In this document: positions 17,301 to 48,712 of the stretch, piece after piece
Layout of the letters: every line of letters begins with the position of its first letter
Numbering within the stretch: the first letter of the stretch is position 1
Origin: Leucosporidium creatinivorum
Taxonomy: Eukaryota; Basidiomycota; Microbotryomycetes; Leucosporidiales; Leucosporidiaceae
Direction: 5' to 3'
DNA length: 64,000 nucleotides
Assembly: GCA_001600635.1 (NCBI GenBank)
Contig: BCKL01000005.1
Coordinates: 677,886-741,885, forward strand
Made by a program: the position numbers and the translations under genes
The notes under the pieces: generated by a model
Database searches by the model: none
What the model was told of the DNA's origin: nothing
What the model saw: only the letters and a program-made list of their open reading frames with translations

Positions 17301-19898
17301 CTGGATGAAGTCGACGGGGTAGAAGTCGATGATGGGCGAGGTGGGGTCGGAGAGGAGGTCGCGGAAGGCGAGAGGAATGTGGGAAGACGAGAGGTCGGGC
17401 AGAACTCCCATGAGCTGCTCGTAGGGATGGAAAGGCTTGCCGATGTCGAATTTGAACTCGTAGGAAGCGGCGTCCTTGAGATCTGCGCATCGAATCAGGG
17501 TGAGATTCGTTTCGAGATGGAAGGAGAAGCAGGCGAGGCCTACCAGAGATCTTGGGAGCGTAGTGGTAGTTGTAGAACCATCCCCACGAGGCAACTCCCG
17601 AGTAGTAGTAGTGCAGGACCCATTGGAGGCCCTCGATGTAGCGGTAGGCGAGGTTGTGAAGCGAGTCCTTATCGCTGAAGGGGAACTCGAGCTTCTCCTG
17701 TGAGGCGCAAGGGAGGGTCAGTCTCGCGCCTTCAGAAGCTCCTCGGTCTGCACGCACCCTGTAATAGTCATTCTTCCAGGTCGCCATCTTCTCCTCCAAC
17801 ACCTTGGCGTGCTCGGCCTCCCAATCATCCTCGTCAAAGTCCTTGGCCGTCTCGGCCTTCTCGTACTTCTTCAACACTCGACCGATAGCCTTCTGCCACT
17901 CGGCCTCTCCCTCCTTGGTCTCCTCCTCGGCGCTCTCCTCGCGCGCCATAGCCAGCATCTCCTCGTCGAAAGAAAGGACGATGAGGGCGTTTCCGTCGAC
18001 GTCGAACTCGTCGTAGGTGAGCTCGAGACGGAGCGCCTCGCCGAGATCGGAGAGGAAGCGACGGTCTCGGGCGGCGAGAGTCGCAGGGAGCTCGAGACGG
18101 GCGTTGGGAGAGAGGGCGGTGAGGTTCTCGTTGACGAAAGTCTTGACGAGACCGAAAAGGCGGCGCTGCTCCTTGGTGAGGACTGGGGTGAAGGAAGGTC
18201 AGCGGGAAGAAGAAGCGCAGGAGAGTCTATGTGCTCACTAAGCTTGTTGCGAGCGCGGGCCTTCTCCATAGCGTCCGAGGGCTTGCTCTGCTTGCCCTTG
18301 AACCAATTCGAGTCGGCGAACTCGTCCTCAAAGTGCTCGGTCTCGAATACGGTGAGCTCGTCGAGGACGAGCTGGAGACGCTTGACGTTGAGTACACCGT
18401 GCTCGTTGAGGTATCCGCCTATATCGGAAGCGGGGTCAGCCTCCTCCTTTTCTCTTCTCCCCGAGTCGACTCACCAGCGACGGGCAGGATCCTCTTGTAG
18501 ATTTCGAAGAGCCGTCCGAGGGCTCCTTCATTGATGTGCAGCCCGGGTAGATGGGGCAGGAAGTCGTTACCGACGAAAATGTTGAGTAGGATGAAGTCGT
18601 CGATGATACGTTCGAGGTCATATTCGAAAGGAAGGGGCGGCGAGGCGACCTTGAGGGATGAGAACTCGAGGTCGAGGTACTCGCGGAAGAGCGAGAGGTG
18701 CATGAGGAAGAAGTTTTGGGTCTCCAAGCTGCGATGAGATGAAGAACGAGTCAGCTCGAGCGTTCATCCGCGTCGACCGAGCGCCGAGATCGAGCTCACC
18801 CCTTTGCCTTGCCCTTCTGAGGGCCAAACTTGACTTCTTCTCGGAGGAGACAGAAGTGGGGGTCATGACTCAGTAGTCCGAGCATGATCAGGTCGGCGTC
18901 GAGGCCGTAGAGACAGTGCCGAACGTTGGCGTCGTAGTCGGGTTGAGCCTTCTTGAGGCGAATGTACTCCATGATCTTGTGCTCTCCTTCTCCAGGGACC
19001 TGTAAAGCGAGGTCAGCAGTTGTTCCCGCCCATCTGTACTCCTGCAACTCACCTCGTGTCCCGACAGCACGATCTCGACTCCACGCCAGTCTGCGTCCTC
19101 CGAGACCTTCTTCGCGATGAAGTACTTGAGTTGCTCCGACAACCTCGCCATGAAGGGAGTTCCTGTCGTAGACGGGTCAGCTCAGTAGTTCCACAGCGCT
19201 GCAGAGACAACTCACCGGGCGTAATACAGTTGGAATCGAAGCCGTCTCCCTCGGGGATGTCCTCGCCCTTGGCCCTCGCCTTGTCGACCGTCTCCTTCAT
19301 CTCCTTGGCGGTCCTGAAGCGCCTACTACGCTGCTGGTTCATCTTGGCGCGAGGCGCGACTCCATCGACAGCGAGGAAGAAGAGCTTCTGGGGTTTGATG
19401 ACGCTGAAGAGGTGCGAGATGTAGGCAAAGACGGCAAGGAAGATGGCCTCCTCGGTGATGCGAAACGACGCGTCGTTGTCGTTCGGATGGGAGCAGTTGT
19501 GGATGATACCATTCATGTCCAGGTCTGTTGGCAAGGCGAGCGGTGAGCGACGAGCGGGGAGGTCAGAGATCAGCTCGTTCTGCAGCGATTGAGCGCTACG
19601 ACGACGTACAGAGAGCATCGAATTCGGGAATGCGGTTCTCCTGGATCAGCTGCGAGATGAGAGGATACCGCTCCCTGTAGAACAAGCTGAGTTAGCTCTC
19701 CGCTGAGGATCGAACGAGACGGTGGCGGGGACACGCACGACATGAAGCGGAAGAACTGCAGTAGGAGAGTATCGGGCGTTAGCTAGCAATCTTGGCCACC
19801 TCTGGAGACCAGCAGCGCACCTTGGGAATTCCTGCAGGGAGCAATCCGAGTCAGTTGAACGCGCGTCGTTGGCAGGCGGTGAGGAGCTGCTCACCCAT
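14363..19898 (-). CDS. XRN1: 5'-3' exoribonuclease 1 (cytoplasmic mRNA decay)
   Basis: XRN1 degrades decapped mRNA from its 5' end in the cytoplasm. The protein starts [20 protein letters not shown] and continues [19 protein letters not shown], which is XRN1-like rather than the nuclear XRN2/Rat1 type. Conserved nuclease blocks follow: [56 protein letters not shown] and [19 protein letters not shown]. Next come the large middle domain ([20 protein letters not shown]) and the SH3-like and PAZ-like C-terminal regions, ending in an RGG-rich tail. I estimate about 1,450 residues. The 5' end is cut into tiny pieces: 4 coding nt at 19898-19895, then exons of 11 nt (19831-19821) and 17 nt (19755-19739). 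About a dozen or more further short introns follow. Confidence 0.95.
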
Positions 19899-27200: not shown

Positions 27201-27487
27201 GGCGATGATGTCGTTCAGCGGGTGCGAAACGGCGAGCGCCTGCAGGATCGTGTTGTAGAAGCATCTGCGGAACGAGATCCTGGCATCAGCCGCGCTGCCC
27301 ACCTCACGTCGGCCGTTTCGGCGCTCCCGCGGGCACTCACGAGTTGCCCAGGTTAACGAGACCGACACTGTGAAGATGCAGTACATTAGTAGTGATCGGC
27401 GCTACGTCCTTAGGCCGAGAGAGCGTACTGGTAGATGTCAGCTACAGGCTCTGCGCGCGCGGTGAAGGTGTTGCGGCGGGCGCGCAT
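24224..27487 (-). CDS. Ubiquitin carboxyl-terminal hydrolase, USP16/USP45-like
   Basis: A cysteine protease that removes ubiquitin. The Cys box GLVNLGNSCFYNTILQALA and the QQDAHEVLRHLIDGIMM block are near the N-terminus. A Ser/Asp/Glu-rich linker and the CDECKH segment come next. A second domain half carries PPVLVIHLKRFQQTSKSSLF, and the His box lies in YAVVVHFGTLVTGHYSAYVK. The last exon adds FYERVKPQPHVV and ends EEAKGGKL. A long disordered insert rich in Ser, Pro and Lys splits the catalytic domain between the CDECKH block and the His box, as in USP16/USP45. The FACHNCWKHLNPDLVEKRRV segment supplies Cys pairs for a Zn ribbon. I start at ATG 27487; the Cys box is encoded by a 27-nt exon. 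No upstream exon could be joined in frame. Confidence 0.85.
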
Positions 27488-29416: not shown

Positions 29417-32400
29417 ATGGCCCCAGTCATCGATATTCCTAATACTGGCGCCCCTCCTCCCGAGGTCGCCGTCTTTTCGCCTACATCTCACTCGTTCACG
29501 GACGACGAGAACCCCCTGCGCCGTCTTCCCGGAGCGCAAGAGGATGCTTCCATTCTGTACGCGAGGCCGCAGGCTAGGCGCAACAAGACGAGGACCTTCT
29601 CTGAGGTATGTAGTCTGGTCCTGCTCCCCCGACTGGTAGCTGATGTAGGACTTTCGGCGCAGAGCGGAGGCTTCGCTGCTATCGCCAAGCAGCGCAACGT
29701 CTACGCGGATGATTCGACACCTCGCTCGAGGAGGATGTCTCACGGTGCGCTCTACTTGTCTGGATGTGCTGCAGAGCTACCTGCTGACCCATTTCGAACA
29801 GACGAGGCGTCGCAAAAGCCTCGCCGATTCTTGGTTGATGTCGAGGAGACGATGAAGCTCGTTCTGGAGCAGGAGGACACTGATGGCAACTTCCAGGTGA
29901 GCAGGGGTCTGCATCTAGCGTTATAGGACACCGCTGATGTGCTCTGACGCTCGCAGATTGCCGCTACGGACAAGGGTCCCAAGGTCTTCTCGCTCGGCAC
30001 CGCCTCCAGCAACGGCTACAACTCGTTCGACGTGAGTTGACGCGATAGAGCCAGCGTCTCGAGCCTATCTAACCCTCTCAACAGATCCGTGGAACCTACA
30101 TGCTCTCCAACCTCCTCCAAGAGCTCGCCCTCGCTCGCGACCACGGCCAGAAGTCTATCGTCCTCGACGAGGCTCGTCTGTCCGAGAACCCCGTCTCGCG
30201 ACTGAGCAGGATGATCCGACACTCGTTCTGGAGCAACCTCACTCGCCGCATCGACGGTGATGGACTCGAGGCCATTTGCGCCGACCCCAAGGTGAGCCGT
30301 CGACCGTCTCGGGCCCTTCTCGGCGCTGAACGAGACTGACCGGTCCGTACGATTTCCGCTCCCTCTTCGCCGACCCAGAACCGCAACAAGAACCAAGCAC
30401 CTCGCGTCTACGTTCCCGAAGCCGAGCCCGGCATGAAGAAGTACTATGAGCGGATCGCCCAGCTCAAGCCTCACCTCGGCCTCATCGTCGACACCGTGCC
30501 GACCAACTTCACCGCCGAATGGGTCAAATCGAGGAACGAGCAGCCTGGTATTCTTGCATTGGCGATGAAGGAGATCAAGAAGGATGGCGAGGACTCGGAC
30601 TTCGAGGGCATCCCGTTCGTCGTGCCCGGAGCGAGGTTCAACGAGCTCTACAACGTGAGCCTGTCACACTTTCTCGCGCTGAGCAGCATGTTGACCACCT
30701 CTTCTTCGTACAGTGGGACAGCTACTTCATCTCCCTCGGACTGCTAGCGGACGGTAACGTCGACCTCGCCAAGGGCATCGTCGAGCATTTCCTCTTCGAA
30801 ATCAAGCACTACGGCAAGATCCTCAACGGCAACCGCAGGTGCGTTCGATGCCAGAGACCTCTCGCTCCTGCGCTAACGTCGATTATCACTACAGCTACTA
30901 CCTCTGCCGCTCTCAGCCTCCCTTCCTCACCGACCTCATTCTCCAAGTGTACGCCCAACTCGATCCCGCCAACGCCGAGGACAACAAGGCATGGCTCAAG
31001 CGGGCGATCCAGGGCGCCATCAAGGAGTACCACACCGTTTGGCAAGACCCTCGCCGTCTCGACGAGGTGACCGGACTCTCTCGCTACCGCCCCGACGGAC
31101 TCGGCATTCCCCCCGAGACGGAGGCCTCTCACTTCACCGCCGTTCTCCAGCCCTACGCCGACGAGCTCGGCATCAGCGTCAACGAGTTCAACGAGAAGTA
31201 CAACGCCGGCGAGGTGGACGTTCCCAAGCTCGACGAGTACTTCTTGCACGACCGCGGAGTCAGGGAGAGTGGACACGACACGACCTATCGCTTCGAGAAG
31301 CGTTGCGCCAACCTCGGGACGATCGACCTGTGCTCCTTGCTCTACAAGTACGAAATCGACATCGCCGCCACCATCAAGGAGCACTTTGACGACTCGCTCG
31401 AGCTGGTCGAGGACTACGAGATCTCGGCGTTCCCCTTCGGAACCGAGATCAAGTACATCGGACCCGCCGACTTCAACACTGGAGAGCACGGCACCAACTC
31501 GAGTCTCGGCAAGGTGCAGACTTCGGCCGAGTGGACCGCTCGCGCCGAGAGGAGGAAGGTCCTCGCCGATTACTACCTCTGGCACGAGGGACGTGGGATC
31601 TACACCGATTGGGATTGCGCCAAAGGCAAGCAGAGCCTCTACGATTCGGTCACCACCTTTTGGCCGATGTGGGCGGGAATGGCGAGCGAGGCGCAGGCCG
31701 AGAAGGTTACGTGAGTTGAACTCGCTTCGTCGACTCCTCGCATGAGATGCTGACCGTCCTCTCCTCTCTCATAGCCAACGCGGCCTTCACCTGTTTGAGG
31801 TCGCTGGTGGACTCGTCTCTGGTACCGACTCTTCGAGGGGACGTGTTTCGCTTCAGCGACCGAACCGTCAGTGGGAGTGAGTCGCCGTTCCCCTTCGCTG
31901 CTGCTGCTACTCGACGCTGATGCTCCTTCTTATCAAAGCTACCCTGCTGCTTGGGTGCGTCGACTCGAAACGCCTATGCCGAGACCGAGCTGACCCTGAC
32001 TTCTCGTCCTTCCTCTCGCGCTCACAGCCTCCTCAGTATGTTTGTTTCCCTCCTGCCGTTCGTCGTTCTAGCACTCACCGTTCCTCTCTCTCTCTCGTAG
32101 CCAAATCATGGCCTGTGCGTCTCGCTCACCGCCCTTCTCAGTGAGCCATCGCTGACCTTCTGATTCTCGCCGAGCAGGGGGCGGACTTCAAAAGTACGGA
32201 CACCACCACGAGGCTCAGCGTGTTGCTTACCGCTGGCTCTACATGTGAGTTTGGCTCGATCCACTTCCCCTCGGAGCAACAGCTGACTCGTTCGCCATAC
32301 AGGGTCACTTGCGGATTCGTCGAGGCCGGGTTCGTCTCCCTTCGAGGTTGGCGCTGATTGCCCTTGCTGACTTCTCGTTTCAACAGTGGCTGCGTTCCCG

Positions 32401-32692
32401 AGAAGTTCAACGCCGTCGAGTCCTCCTCCAACATTGACGCCGAGTACGGCAACCAGGGAACCGACTTCACCTTGATCCCTCGCGAAGGCTTTGGCTGGTT
32501 CGTCGCCTTCCTCCCCTTCCTCGCCATTCTCGCAGCTGGTTAACTTTCTTTGTCTAATACAGGACCAACGCCAGCTACCAGCTCGGCCTCGAGGTCATCA
32601 CTCAGTTCCAGCGCCGCGCGCTCGGCGCTCTCACCCCTCCCGATTCCTTCTTCTACGGCCCCAGGAAGGGTCAGCAGCAGCCCGCTCCCTGA
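29417..32692 (+). CDS. NTH1: Neutral trehalase (GH37) with N-terminal calcium-binding domain
   Basis: Cytosolic hydrolase that splits trehalose to two glucoses on recovery from stress or dormancy. The regulatory N-terminus holds basic-Ser sites suitable for protein kinase A (RNKTRTFSE and RRMSH) and the calcium-binding domain ([20 protein letters not shown]). The catalytic domain has [20 protein letters not shown] (signature 1), [14 protein letters not shown], and signature 2 QWDYPAAWPPHQIMAWGGL. It ends [13 protein letters not shown]. Signature 2 is assembled from five exons, including micro-exons at 31939-31954 (16 nt), 32028-32035 (8 nt) and 32101-32114 (14 nt). The intron before 31939 ends in AAAG, not the usual pyrimidine-AG. 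The roughly 800-residue size fits the family. The start at 29417 is the first ATG in the family frame after a likely leader acceptor. Confidence 0.94.
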
Positions 32693-33036
32693 ACGGACCC
32701 CACACCAACCAATGTACAAAGTCGGTTCCCTCCTGTAGAAATCGCTTAACCCCCCACGAGACTGTGAAACTCAAGCATGATCATCCCATCTCGAGGCGCT
32801 CGGCGAAGGAGTCGAAAGTATACTGCAGCTTCTTCGTCGGACTCGCTCTGCAAAAGATTCGTTTGACCTCTCGCTGTGCAATACTTTCGGCCGACGGCAA
32901 GCACAACTCGACTTTCGCCGTCTCCGCTCACAACGTCAGCGCTCGGCGGCTCGCGCTCGACACAGGTTGCCTTCGCCATCTTTCCTCGTTTCTCGCTTCG
33001 ACTCGTGTACCGACCTTTCTCAACGACTTGAAGGGC
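32693..33036. other. Intergenic region, trehalase to MGM1
   Basis: A 344-bp gap between tandem plus-strand genes: the trehalase 3' end and the MGM1 promoter. An open frame from 32491 runs in phase across this gap into MGM1, but its upstream part overlaps trehalase exons, so I reject it as an extension. Confidence 0.4.
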
Positions 33037-36000
33037 ATGTCTGCACTCTTACGACGAGGCAGTCGCCTCCGCCCTACGCCTTTACGCCTCGCCGCTCTTC
33101 CCTTACACCCCTCACGCCAGCTTCACGTCCGCTCCGTTTCGATCTTGAGCGGGCTCGGCAAGCTCGCAGGCAGGACAGCAGGTCGAGGGGTAATTGGGCT
33201 TGGTGTAGGAGCAGGTACATTAACTTGGGCAGAGTGGAAAGTCGACGGTAAGCCCTACATGACGCTCGTCCTCTTGTTGATTTTAAGACGAACGAGCTGA
33301 CCGTCTGTCGAGCTACAGGTTTCAAGCAGAATGCTGTAGGCGCATTGAGCGAGATCAACGGGAAGCTCGGACAAGCCTACGACTCGCTCTCGACTACAGC
33401 AGCCTCCACCTTCTCCTCCGTCTCATCAACCGCCACAGACCTCTCGCAGACGGCCGCCGAAGCGTGGGCCGACGCTGCACTCGGCGCAGGAAACAGGTTC
33501 GACCTATTGAGGAATAGGTTTAAGGAGGCCTTCGCCGCTCGCGAGGGAGCCGAGGAGGAGCACGAGCAGGAGGAGCAAGGAGCGCCCGAACCGCCCAAGG
33601 ACAAGAAGGGACCGCTAGCGTCCATCGCTGCTGCCATGGCTGCTGCAGCACCGGTCCTCGTCGATGCGGAGGAGCACCGCGCGGGTGGAGGAGACGATCC
33701 GACGGGCGACCTGATGCTTCTCACGCGCAAGCTCATCGAGATTAGGTCTATCCTCCTCAGCATCGGCGAGGAGGCAGGGCTTACTCTGCCTAGCATCGTC
33801 GTCATTGGAAGTCAGAGCAGTGGAAAGTCGAGTGTGCTGGAGGCCATTGTCGGGAGGGAGTTCTTGCCGAAGTGAGTGGCTCTCTTCTTCTCCTTGCGCC
33901 GAGCTGACCGCCGTCGTCAATTGCGCAGAGGAGACAACATGGTCACTCGTCGACCGATCGAGCTCACACTCATCCACACGCCCTCCTCCCCCTCCGACCC
34001 CAATCCCAAGACCTTCGCCGAGTTCCCCTCCCTCGGCCCTGGGCACATCACCGACTTCTCGCTCGTCCAGCAAACCCTCGTCGACCTCAACCTTTCCGTC
34101 CCCGCCGCCGAGTGCGTCTCCGACTCTCCCATCCACCTCCGCATCCATTCGCCCAACGTGCCCGACCTCTCCCTCGTCGACCTCCCCGGCTACGTCCAAA
34201 TCAGCTCGATGGACCAGCCCGAGGAGCTCAAGGAGAAGATCAACAAGCTTTGCGACAAGTACATCCGCTCCCCCAACATTATCCTCGCCGTGTGCGCCGC
34301 CGACGTCGATCTCGCCAACTCTCCCGCCCTTCGCGCCAGCAAGAAGGTCGACCCTCTCGGCATGCGTACCATTGGCGTCGTTACGAAGATGGATCTCGTT
34401 CAGCCCGAGGTTGGAGCCGCAATCCTGGCCAACGGCCGCTACCCTCTCGCCCTCGGCTACGTCGGAGTCGTCTGCAAGGCGGCCTCCAAGGGCCGCGAGG
34501 GCCGCCTCATGAAGAGGGACGCCGACGGAGGCAGCCTCATCGCCCCCATCAAGGCGCAGGAGGACGCTTACTTTGGCTCGAACGTCGAGGTCTTCTCGCA
34601 GGAGAACATGCTCGTCGGCACGGGCACGCTCAAGCGGCGCCTGATGCAGGTCCTCGAGGAGTCGATGGCCGCTTCCCTCCACACCATCTCCAACGCCGTC
34701 GCCATCGAGCTGGAGGAGGCTTCGTACCAGTTCAAGGTCCAGTACAACGACCGCTCCATTTCGGCCGAGTCCTACGTCGCCGAAACGATGGATCACCTCA
34801 AGGCGCGCATCACGGAGCTCGGCAAGGGCTTCAGCAAGGCCGAGGTTCGCAGGATGCTCAAGTCGGCCATCGACGAGCAGGTCCTCGACCTCCTCGCTCA
34901 GCAGTATTGGGCCGACCTCAAGACTCCCGAGTTGAGCAAGCTCGGCGACAACTCGAAACTCTCGCCGGAGGACCTCGACCTCTACTGGCAACGCAAGCTT
35001 GACGCCATCTCCTCGTCCCTCACCAAGTCGGGAGTCGGTCGCGCCTCCACTCAACTCGTCGTCGATGCCATTCGGGCCCAGCTCTCCCAACTCGCAGGCG
35101 AGGAACCCCTCACCTACCACCCCGAAGCCTCTGAGCGAGTCAACGCCACCGCCGACGCCCTCCTTCGCGAGCGCTTCTCCCTCACCTCCGACCAGGTCGA
35201 GAACTCGGTCAAGCCGTTCAAGTACGAGGTAGAGGTCGATGCCAAGGAGTGGGATCAAGGACGCGAGCGGTCGGTCGAGTTGGTGCAGAGGGAGATGAAC
35301 ATGTGTGAGGGCGCCTTGGATAAGATCAAGGATGCGGTCGGGGGAAGGAAGTTGAGGGGTGCGATGGAGTATGTTGGGGAGTTGGAGGAGAAGGAGAGGA
35401 GAAGGAGGGAGAGGAGGAGGGAAGCGAAAGCGGGTGGGGAGGAGTGGGTTGAGGAGGACGACGCTAGCGATCCGACACGGCCAGCCTACAACCCAGCACT
35501 TCTCGCCAAGGGTGCGTTGTTCTCTCGAGGTTTGTTCTGAGTGCTTTCGCTCACTCATCGTTCCCTCGCAGCTCGAGAGGCAATGTTCCTCACTTCGCGG
35601 AGTCAGATCCTTCGACTTCGCATGCAGGCGCTCAAGTCGCGTCGCTGCAAGATGGGACCGGATCAGAAGGCGTTCTGTCCCGAAGCCTTCCTCAACGTTG
35701 TCGCCGACAAGCTCTCGCACACCGCCGTGCAGTTCATCAACGTGAGTTTTCGGCTCTCGGCAGTCGATCATAGGACGCTTGCTGACCCATGCCTCTCCTC
35801 AAGATCGAGCTGCTCGTCGAGTTCTTCTACCAGTTCCCTCGGGAGATCGACACTCGCCTGGGCTACGACCTCGACCGCTCCGAAGTACAAGCCTTCGCTC
35901 GCGAGAACCCCGCCGTCCGTACCCACCTCACCCTCCAGGATCGCAAGGAGAAGCTCGAGATGGTGAGTTGCCCTGGCTCCATACTAAGACCTCGTCGCTG

Positions 36001-36124
36001 ACTCGTCCCCCCTTCACAGGTCGCCGAGAAGCTCGACAGCCTCGTCAAGCTGCAGCGCGAGAAGGCCTCGCAGAGCCCCCTTCGCCGACATGAGCAGCGC
36101 CGAGGTCTGTTCGGCATGTTCTGA
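33037..36124 (+). CDS. MGM1: Mitochondrial inner-membrane dynamin-like GTPase
   Basis: Mgm1 (OPA1 orthologue) fuses the inner membrane and shapes cristae. The N-terminus is a presequence ([20 protein letters not shown]) followed by a hydrophobic segment ([16 protein letters not shown]) that would anchor the long form. An Ala-rich stretch [12 protein letters not shown] precedes the GTPase domain and is a candidate for the rhomboid-cleaved segment. The GTPase motifs are [18 protein letters not shown] (G1), DLPGYVQ (G3) and TKMDL (G4). The middle and effector regions follow. A charged Arg/Glu-rich insert (around 35383-35470) lies before the C-terminal helical part, which ends RRGLFGMF. Most of the protein comes from one long exon (33930-35512). 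The intron before 35804 ends in AAG. About 930 residues. Confidence 0.93.
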
Positions 36125-46697: not shown

Positions 46698-48712
46698 ATG
46701 TCCAGCCCTGCCGAAAAGATTCCTGGTACTCCTAGGCCTATCCCGGAGATGGGTGAGTACTCCTGTACCCTTTCACTGCACCTTTACGGCGACGCCGAGC
46801 GGTGCGAGCTGACGATTAGCCGCTCTCCGATTGACTCTCGTTCCAACAGTCAACCCTGCGGTCAACCAGCCCATCGTATCGCCTTACATGTTCCCTCTCA
46901 GCGGACTCTGGCGTATGGTGCGTACTCCGCTACAGAGCAGCTCCCCCCTCCCCTCGCACGCCGAGCAGCAGCTGACCCTCGCACTCTACACTCGCACAGC
47001 TCACCTCCCTCGGCAAGCTCGCCTTCACCATCATGTTCATCCTCGTCTTGCACACCGTCGACACTGGCTTCTTCCTCCTCAACCTCATCTGGCCCTCGCG
47101 CAACAGGTATGCTCTCGTCCCTCGCGCCTACTCGCCCGAGCACCCTCCCGTTTTCACCGAGAGGCCGGGGACTTGGATCTTGTGCATGTGGGAGAGCTTC
47201 CTCGGCCCTGGATTGACGCCCGAATGTGAGTCTGAGCGTGTGGAGATGCAAGGTGGTTGGAGGAGGCAAGGAGCCGAGATAGAGCGAAGCTTGAGCAGGA
47301 CGGCTCGGCGATGGCGTGTCAGAGATGCAGAGGGCTTCGATGCGTGGTGAATCGACGCGCTGACATTTCCTCACCCCTCTGATACCACAGGGATCACCTA
47401 CATCACTCACTGGGAGGGCATCGGCCACGACGGTCGCTGGGAGTACTCGTTCGAGGCTCCCTCCGACTCGTCCACTAACAACTGGAGTCGCTGCCCTTGC
47501 CCTGCGATCAATGCGAGTGAGTTGGAATTATTCTAGCGCCGACGAGCTCGCGTGCGACGACTCTGAGTTGACTCTTTGCCCTTCTCGGCGTTCGCTCTCC
47601 TCGCTTCAAGTGGCCAACCACGGCATCATCCCTCGCAACGGCCGTCACATCACTCCCGTCCAGCTCGCCGCCGCCGTGCACAACACCTACAACCTCAGCC
47701 CCACCCTCTCGATCCAGCTCCTCGCCGCCTTCTACCCCTTCTACCTCGAGAGGTGAGTTACTCGGCAACTCCTGCTCGGCGCTCTCGTCGCTGACCTCTC
47801 TTCGCTCTCTCTTCACAGGGGATGGTTCGATATTGAGGACCTTGGAGGCCAAGGTGTCATCCAGCACGACGGTAGCTTCCTGCGTGAGTCGCTCCTGCTC
47901 AATCCCCTCCGCCGAGCTGACCTCTTCACCGCTCTGCATACACAGGCGAGGATGTCAACTCGCCTTGGGCCTTCCCCACCGTCATCGCCACCCAGGCGAG
48001 GCCTTCTCAACGTCTCATCGAGAGGTACTTCCCCAANGCCAACAGGCAGGACTACACCTGGAAGAACCACTCGGCGATCCTCGCTCAGTGAGTTCTGCTC
48101 CCCTCTTCGCTCTCTCGCAGGGTCGATGGCTGACCCTNACTTCTCCACCACAGCCGTCGCGCCGACTCGCGCAACCACAACGGCACCTTCGTCCTCAACC
48201 CCCTCCAGGTAAGCTCGGCGCTCTCCGCTCGCCCTCTCACCCAAGCCGATCCCCTCCCCACTCCTCTCACCTACAGTACGTGTTCTCGTCCGGCAACTCT
48301 GCTTTGATCCACGAGGTCGTCGGAGGCAAGATGAACGAGCGTGAGTNNAGCTCGNCCNNTCGACGCTCGACGCTCGGCGCTCTTACTGACCTCGCCCCCC
48401 GCCTCGCCCATAGTCCGCCCCTGGATCGGCGCTCAAGGCTGGGAGAAGCACATCGACGGTTTCATGCCCAAGTGCACGCAAGGCTGGGGCATGGTCAGTC
48501 GTCTGCTCTCGCTTCTCTCCCTCGCTCGGCGCTGACTCCACCTTCCCTGCCAACAGTCCATCCTCCAACTCCAAATCTGGACCGCCATCATCGAGCTCGG
48601 CTGTGGACCCCTCTCTGGCCACCGCTTCCCCTACGAGAACGACATCGACGCCTACGAGGGCTGGAACGCCGATTTGGCGCAGGCGAATGCTCAGCTCGAG
48701 CTCAAGAACTGA
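46698..48712 (+). CDS. Heme-thiolate peroxidase (chloroperoxidase/peroxygenase family), membrane-anchored
   Basis: Members use a heme bound by a Cys thiolate to oxidise or halogenate substrates with peroxide. The Cys ligand lies in SRCPCPAINAMANHGIIPRN, a good PCP motif. The distal acid-base motif of the family (EHD or EGD) reads QHD here, in GVIQHDGSFLREDVNSPW. The C-terminal block is LRPWIGAQGWEKHIDGF. Instead of a cleaved signal peptide there is one internal hydrophobic segment, KLAFTIMFILVLHTVDTGFF, around residues 55-75, suggesting a membrane anchor. About ten introns; one ends in AAG at 47610. Undetermined bases occur at 48036, 48138, 48347-48358 and 48713; the one at 48036 hides a residue after RYFP. 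It ends ANAQLELKN. Confidence 0.85.

Follow-up and report, generated by a model that had tools for sequence, protein, structure and literature searches.

Can consecutive exons of 16, 8 and 14 nt together spell the signature of a family 37 glycoside hydrolase (GH37) and, if these exons are genuine, does their splicing set the amount of enzyme? Both questions are raised by a trehalase gene in a 64,000-nt stretch of Leucosporidium creatinivorum DNA (contig BCKL01000005.1, positions 677,886 to 741,885), referred to here as the window. The genome comprises 27.7 Mb in 63 contigs, and the G+C content of the window is 59-63%. Micro-exons are defined as internal exons of at most 30 nt between spliceosomal introns.

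Identity and overall structure of the gene

By its domain content the gene is a GH37 neutral trehalase and is predicted to hydrolyze trehalose. The refined model has 16 exons and encodes 779 amino acids, or 798 if a 57-nt stretch (29745-29801) is retained. The Pfam scan was run on the 798-residue version. The Trehalase domain (PF01204) scores 502.6 bits and extends over profile positions 3-510 of 512, covering most of the profile's length, as in the NTH type of GH37. The N-terminal calcium-binding domain (Trehalase_Ca-bi, PF07492) is present at its full length, with 57.1 bits over positions 1-30 of 30. The match to yeast Nth1 (PDB 5jta) has an E value of 1e-216; we take 5jta, 5n6n, 5nis and 5m4a all to be the Saccharomyces cerevisiae neutral trehalase Nth1. 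A family-specific search of the genome, in which the best candidates were scored, gave three matches, all inside this gene. The model holds 14-15 introns, all of which are GT-AG. Coordinates are given in Table 1.

Table 1. Coordinates of the trehalase features and of supported short exons in other genes. Positions are those of the window unless prefixed C5. Percentiles refer to 418 predicted introns. Letters in parentheses are residues whose codons are split.
Feature	Position	Strand	Description	Support
Neutral trehalase gene (GH37, NTH type)	29417..32692	+	coding span	assembled exon model, Pfam, yeast Nth1 match
Probable extra in-frame intron	29745..29801	+	57 nt, within by-eye exon 2	ab initio model, spliced alignment, splice-site percentiles
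Exon 9	31775..31876	+	102 nt, closes with ...RPNRQWD (two of three D-codon bases)	
Intron	31877..31938	+	62 nt; donor 52nd percentile (average), acceptor/branch 14th (weak)	
Micro-exon 10	31939..31954	+	16 nt, (D)YPAAW	path scoring, leave-out model, spliced alignment
Intron	31955..32027	+	73 nt; branch-like site CTGACCC, acceptor/branch 86th percentile	
Micro-exon 11	32028..32035	+	8 nt, PP(H)	path scoring, leave-out model, spliced alignment
Intron	32036..32100	+	65 nt; donor TCA/GTATGT 11th percentile, acceptor/branch 16th	
Micro-exon 12	32101..32114	+	14 nt, (H)QIMA(W)	path scoring, leave-out model, spliced alignment
Intron	32115..32177	+	63 nt; branch-like site CTGACCT	
Exon 13	32178..32244	+	67 nt, opens with GG of W codon, then GGLQKYG...	
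Short exon 14	32303..32329	+	27 nt, (M)VTCGFVEA(G)	leave-out model, spliced alignment
Exon 15	32387..32497	+	111 nt, carries VPEKF	
Xrn1 exoribonuclease start	19610-19898	-	4-nt coding piece ATGG, then 11 nt (19821-19831) and 17 nt (19739-19755)	
PP2A catalytic subunit (L008), micro-exon	C5:44112-44128		17 nt, LVMEGF	gap-free alignment to PP2A-C 2ie4
Guanine deaminase (L019), micro-exon	C5:154534-154555		22 nt, (G)LIDTHTH	

The stretch 29745-29801 is probably an intron rather than coding. In a first model made by eye it was coding, which gave 15 exons with the micro-exons numbered 9-11 and 13, but the ab initio model, the spliced alignment and site strength favor an intron: the donor is at the 42nd and the acceptor/branch at the 86th percentile, with a branch-like CTGACCC. 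Because of this likely intron, the micro-exons are numbered 10-12 and 14 of 16. Retention of the stretch would insert 19 residues beside an RRMS motif, possibly a PKA site.

A further 31 residues (545-575 of the 798-residue version; window 31421-31513) are unmatched in yeast Nth1 and lie between two aligned stretches. A lineage insertion would explain them, and an unrecognized in-frame intron is less likely. The spliced alignment placed an intron at 31453-31551, which was rejected; it would delete residues matching Nth1 and probably results from the linear gap cost.

We take D312 and E496 to be the catalytic residues of the Escherichia coli trehalase. If a numbering offset of 30 is applied, the Nth1 alignment places the glutamate within VPEKF of exon 15, and the Glu of this motif is the probable catalytic base. 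With the same offset, the aspartate falls in the exon 30895-31710, in an unaligned part where its position is only bracketed by aligned stretches. Neither residue is encoded by a micro-exon.

The next gene downstream (window 33259-36124) resembles by eye a mitochondrial dynamin-family GTPase. Two predicted genes farther away, L015 and L016 (C5 about 114455-117073 and 124064-125355), resemble retrotransposon reverse-transcriptase pieces, also by eye.

The micro-exon stretch and its junctions

The initial annotation had spread GH37 signature 2 over five exons, three of them the consecutive pieces listed in Table 1 as micro-exons 10 to 12. Their coordinates proved exact, and every piece stands between an AG and a GT (ag-CTACCCTGCTGCTTGG-gt, ag-CCTCCTCA-gt and ag-CCAAATCATGGCCT-gt). 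The spliced product contains QWDxPx[GAV]W[PAS]P, which we take to be signature 2 of trehalases, and among the paths scored the micro-exons are required to spell it. Joined, the micro-exons align gap-free with yeast Nth1 QWDYPFGWAPHQILAWEGL. Together with exon 14, the gene has micro-exons of 16, 8, 14 and 27 nt, all with GT-AG borders.

Open intron paths that connect exon 9 (start 31775) with exon 13 (end 32244) were listed and scored with BLOSUM62 against yeast Nth1. The first listing allowed GT-AG introns of 45-130 nt and gave 7,420 paths, which were scored where their length differed from that of Nth1 by no more than 40 residues; a wider listing with introns of 40-260 nt gave 17,116 paths (14,176 scored), and one that included GC donors gave 228,226 (191,410 scored). 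In all three listings the micro-exon path stands alone at the top, with a score of 181 versus 159 for the next. GC-AG introns, admitted among the 191,410 scored paths, gave nothing that beats 181. The initial annotation's statement that only these three pieces restore frame and motif exactly holds among the paths scored. In a shuffle control the dinucleotide content was kept and the anchor exons, 8 nt at the first donor and 9 nt at the last acceptor were fixed. The best path per shuffle had a mean of 110 (sd 12.6, maximum 132, n = 311).

A homology-free gene model, built on codon use, splice sites, branch site and intron length, was trained on the window plus 200 kb of the same contig. For leave-out training window 31400-32700 was hidden, the first seed being the trehalase's own first six exons. 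The leave-out model finds all four introns around the micro-exons at each of six intron-cost settings; at the loosest it overran into the next gene. Masking an exon costs 0.3-4.7 nats for the 16-nt exon, 6.5-11.0 for the 8-nt exon, 3.9-11.1 for the 14-nt exon and 6.6-10.8 for the 27-nt exon. An ordinary run with the trehalase included gave the 16-, 8- and 14-nt exons at two of three settings and, at the strictest, a single 12-nt exon instead of the 16- and 8-nt exons, which counts mildly against the micro-exons. Protein-to-DNA spliced alignment with Nth1 places identical borders at four of four settings. The C-terminal 239 residues score 186.8 bits against Pfam trehalase when complete, 151.7 without the 16- and 8-nt exons, 141.6 without the 16- and 14-nt exons, and 95.3 without the 8-nt exon.

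Two readings would deny these junctions. According to one, short AG...GT strings spell the motif by chance in a broken or differently built gene. The strings are only 8-16 nt long and the introns here are rich in AG and GT, so that such coincidences are conceivable; however, none of the 311 shuffles attains even the runner-up score of 159, the remainder of the trehalase gene reads as full length and the homology-free model concurs with the micro-exons. We consider this reading almost certainly wrong. According to the other, splicing in vivo relies on another set of junctions, such as the +4 donor at 31959 together with the donor at 32044. This set is the runner-up itself, the best alternative open GT-AG path, but it drops PPH of the motif at a cost of 22 points and is chosen neither by the unmasked homology-free model (0 of 6 settings) nor by the spliced alignment (0 of 4), which makes it very improbable. 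Path scoring, the skip tests described below and the Pfam scores all indicate that the trehalase protein requires the micro-exons, and their borders, frame and splice-signal fit are confirmed at the sequence level.

Skipping, splice-site strength and mechanism

Skipping any one of the 16-, 8- and 14-nt exons shifts the frame (3 of 3). The initial annotation's claim of a frame shift inside the catalytic core therefore stands for single skips, but does not extend to pairs, two of three of which keep the frame. These are the 16-nt exon with the 8-nt exon (24 nt) and the 16-nt exon with the 14-nt exon (30 nt), both at the loss of motif residues; the second yields RPNRQWDLLRGGL. Skipping the 8- and 14-nt exons shifts the frame, as does skipping all three. 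The 27-nt exon can be skipped in frame because its length is a multiple of three. If any one of the last seven introns is retained, the frame changes or an early stop arises (7 of 7).

Splice-site strength was ranked against 418 introns from other predicted genes, taken with no score threshold and themselves predictions. Their median length is 65 nt, and by this measure the trehalase introns are unremarkable. Both ends of the intron that follows the 8-nt exon are weak (Table 1), and against the score-filtered training set the donor and acceptor/branch of this intron fall to the 5th and 8th percentiles. The acceptor/branch before the 16-nt exon falls to the 7th against the same set. The donor that follows exon 14 (27 nt) ranks at the 18th percentile; in the last trehalase intron (32498-32562) donor and acceptor/branch are both at the 21st.

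The gene is very probably an ordinary fungal neutral trehalase with constitutive micro-exons that are spliced by intron definition. The 3' half of the gene appears to be densely cut by short spliceosomal introns, so closely spaced that exons of 16, 8, 14 and 27 nt remain between them. Each intron of 57-73 nt would be recognized as a unit through its own 5' splice site, branch site and 3' splice site. Because introns would be recognized singly, no minimum exon length would be needed; under intron definition, splicing efficiency is set by intron length and not by exon length (PMC8624252, a review). The introns that flank the 8-nt exon are probably removed one after the other, in order, because two spliceosomes cannot sit 8 nt apart simultaneously. 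Splicing of the micro-exons in most transcripts and by intron definition is most likely, and ordered removal is probable.

Regulated splicing is the principal alternative. The 8-nt exon, or the 16- and 8-nt pair, would be included to a degree that varies with growth or stress and sets the amount of active trehalase; skipped forms would be destroyed after the frame shift or, if in frame, would probably give an inactive protein. Several observations are compatible with such a switch. All seven retentions tested and all three single skips of the 16-, 8- and 14-nt exons disrupt the frame or stop early, the two in-frame pair skips remove motif residues, and the 8-nt exon is followed by a weak intron. 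Elsewhere in fungi a 20-nt micro-exon of Trichoderma Xlr2, not a multiple of three, is reported to be glucose-dependent (PMC11121469), and more than one transcript is reported for 10.6% of Cryptococcus genes (PMC3990503). Inefficient splicing is possible because of this weak intron and because the 16-nt exon adds just 0.3-4.7 nats, and the weak intron may be regarded as the sole positive hint of leaky splicing. The weakness is, however, not special to the micro-exons, since the intron 32498-32562, which lies away from them, is weak too. Micro-exons are also usually, though not strictly, multiples of three (PMC11121469); 27 is, whereas 16, 8 and 14 are not. We consider regulated splicing quite unlikely.

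The proposal of the initial annotation that splicing fidelity tunes the trehalase level is possible but unsupported, and we give it a low probability. A more specific version, in which the three micro-exons act jointly as a fidelity gate, is just as doubtful. The fraction of correct trehalase mRNA would drop under splicing stress such as heat or starvation, because the intron following the 8-nt exon is weak and would have to be removed in order with its neighbors. If this were true, trehalase would be cut exactly when trehalose must be kept, and the in-frame skip of the 16- and 8-nt exons would leave a trehalase protein without its pocket.

The gene offers a clean, checkable case of a fungal enzyme core built from consecutive exons of 8-16 nt. 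Annotators should also take it as a caution: if these 38 nt are overlooked, a pipeline would label the trehalase as truncated or as a pseudogene.

Short exons in other genes of the genome

Short exons were surveyed over 264 kb at one gene-model setting, with about 100 codons as the minimum gene length. Among 367 internal exons, these predictions, which include errors, contain 28 of at most 30 nt, in 21 genes. Support was tested by comparing the short-exon form with the model's next form when the exon was masked, or by alignment to solved structures. Nine of the 28 are supported, across the five genes tested of the 21; four of the nine are those of the trehalase. Eight of the 16 other predicted genes with short exons were scanned against Pfam in the exon-containing form only, which is no test of the exon, and five of these were above the cut-off.

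The supported cases outside the trehalase are in different families. The 11- and 17-nt exons of the Xrn1 exoribonuclease encode the conserved N-terminal MGIPKFFRFMSERYP, and the Pfam score is 280.9 bits with the short exons versus 258.7 without. For guanine deaminase the scores are 68.8 bits with the micro-exon and 39.1 without; its DTHTH motif is presumably metal-binding. Elsewhere on the contig, the gene of an ankyrin protein includes a 13-nt exon (Ank 53.6 versus 35.0 bits). The PP2A exon lies at the end of the profile and changes the score only from 131.9 to 132.5 bits; there the alignment to the solved structure discriminates instead. The predicted last coding exon of the PP2A gene is 12 nt long (YFL stop).

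A predicted 27-nt exon of a ubiquitin-specific protease (27341-27367, minus strand) encodes HVGLVNLGNS, the start of the catalytic-cysteine box; the form with this exon, the only one scanned, scores 58.5 bits against Pfam UCH. A predicted 1-nt exon at 48121, with a 96-nt and a 155-nt intron on its two sides in the gene 46698-48712, may be an artefact. It and exons of 2 and 3 nt predicted elsewhere are without homology support and are not claimed. For the loci L024-L035, 7 of 12 were spliced-aligned, and the L024 alignment was unusable. Additional short exons that spliced alignment placed towards the ends of loci resembling tubulin and actin are uncertain and were left out of the counts.

With Xrn1, PP2A and guanine deaminase as further examples, micro-exons look like a habit of this genome. 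Because of this, the ordered removal of neighboring introns would be better studied genome-wide than in the trehalase. The trehalase case is neat but ordinary, given similar genes in the same genome and the smaller fungal exons already known.

Comparison with known systems

A search for 'microexon' together with 'trehalase', in this unhyphenated spelling and with most subscription journals outside its reach, found no paper, so the micro-exons of this gene seem undescribed in the literature searched; a search of the same literature for short exons in Rhodosporidium toruloides likewise found none. Micro-exons are typically 3-15 nt long (PMC13149111, a review). The initial annotation had put an 8-nt exon near the lower limit for eukaryotes, and this is contradicted by published exons of 1, 5 and 6 nt (PMC12940212, PMC9142197, PMC1184071).

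The 1-nt exon is in the Fusarium P450 CYP621A and is backed by RNA reads; another, in Arabidopsis APC11, is cited in the same paper (PMC12940212). The CYP621A exon lies within a conserved motif and restores both frame and motif, as do those of the trehalase, but it is 1 nt rather than 8, single rather than one of three in a row, and from an ascomycete. In Phanerochaete chrysosporium, close to a third of the P450 genes contain exons of 2-10 amino acids, the shortest exon being 6 bp (PMC1184071). These are likewise basidiomycete genes with very short exons; they differ in belonging to another family and in that alternative splicing was suggested by the authors. Trichoderma virens Xlr2, with its 20-nt micro-exon and glucose-dependent expression, shares with the trehalase a fungal micro-exon inside a functional domain (PMC11121469). 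The glucose dependence is a feature of Xlr2 that is not known for the trehalase.

A close parallel is bglA of basidiomycete yeasts. Comparison with cDNA revealed many introns and several micro-exons (<30 bp), putatively common in such yeasts; the shortest exons are 5 bp in Sirobasidium magnum and 6 bp in Rhodotorula minuta, the latter with ten exons below 30 bp, and bglA of Sterigmatomyces elviae is given as having no micro-exon (PMC9142197). Like the trehalase, the genes of S. magnum, R. minuta and Hamamotoa singularis encode glycoside hydrolases and have short introns (bglA means 59-81 nt). They differ in being GH1, and in R. minuta and H. singularis a single intron per gene departs from GT-AG (PMC9142197); the trehalase model contains GT-AG introns throughout. 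With yeast Nth1 the trehalase shares the calcium-binding domain and the GH37 domain; it differs from Nth1 in its 14-15 introns and in the 31 unmatched residues (545-575).
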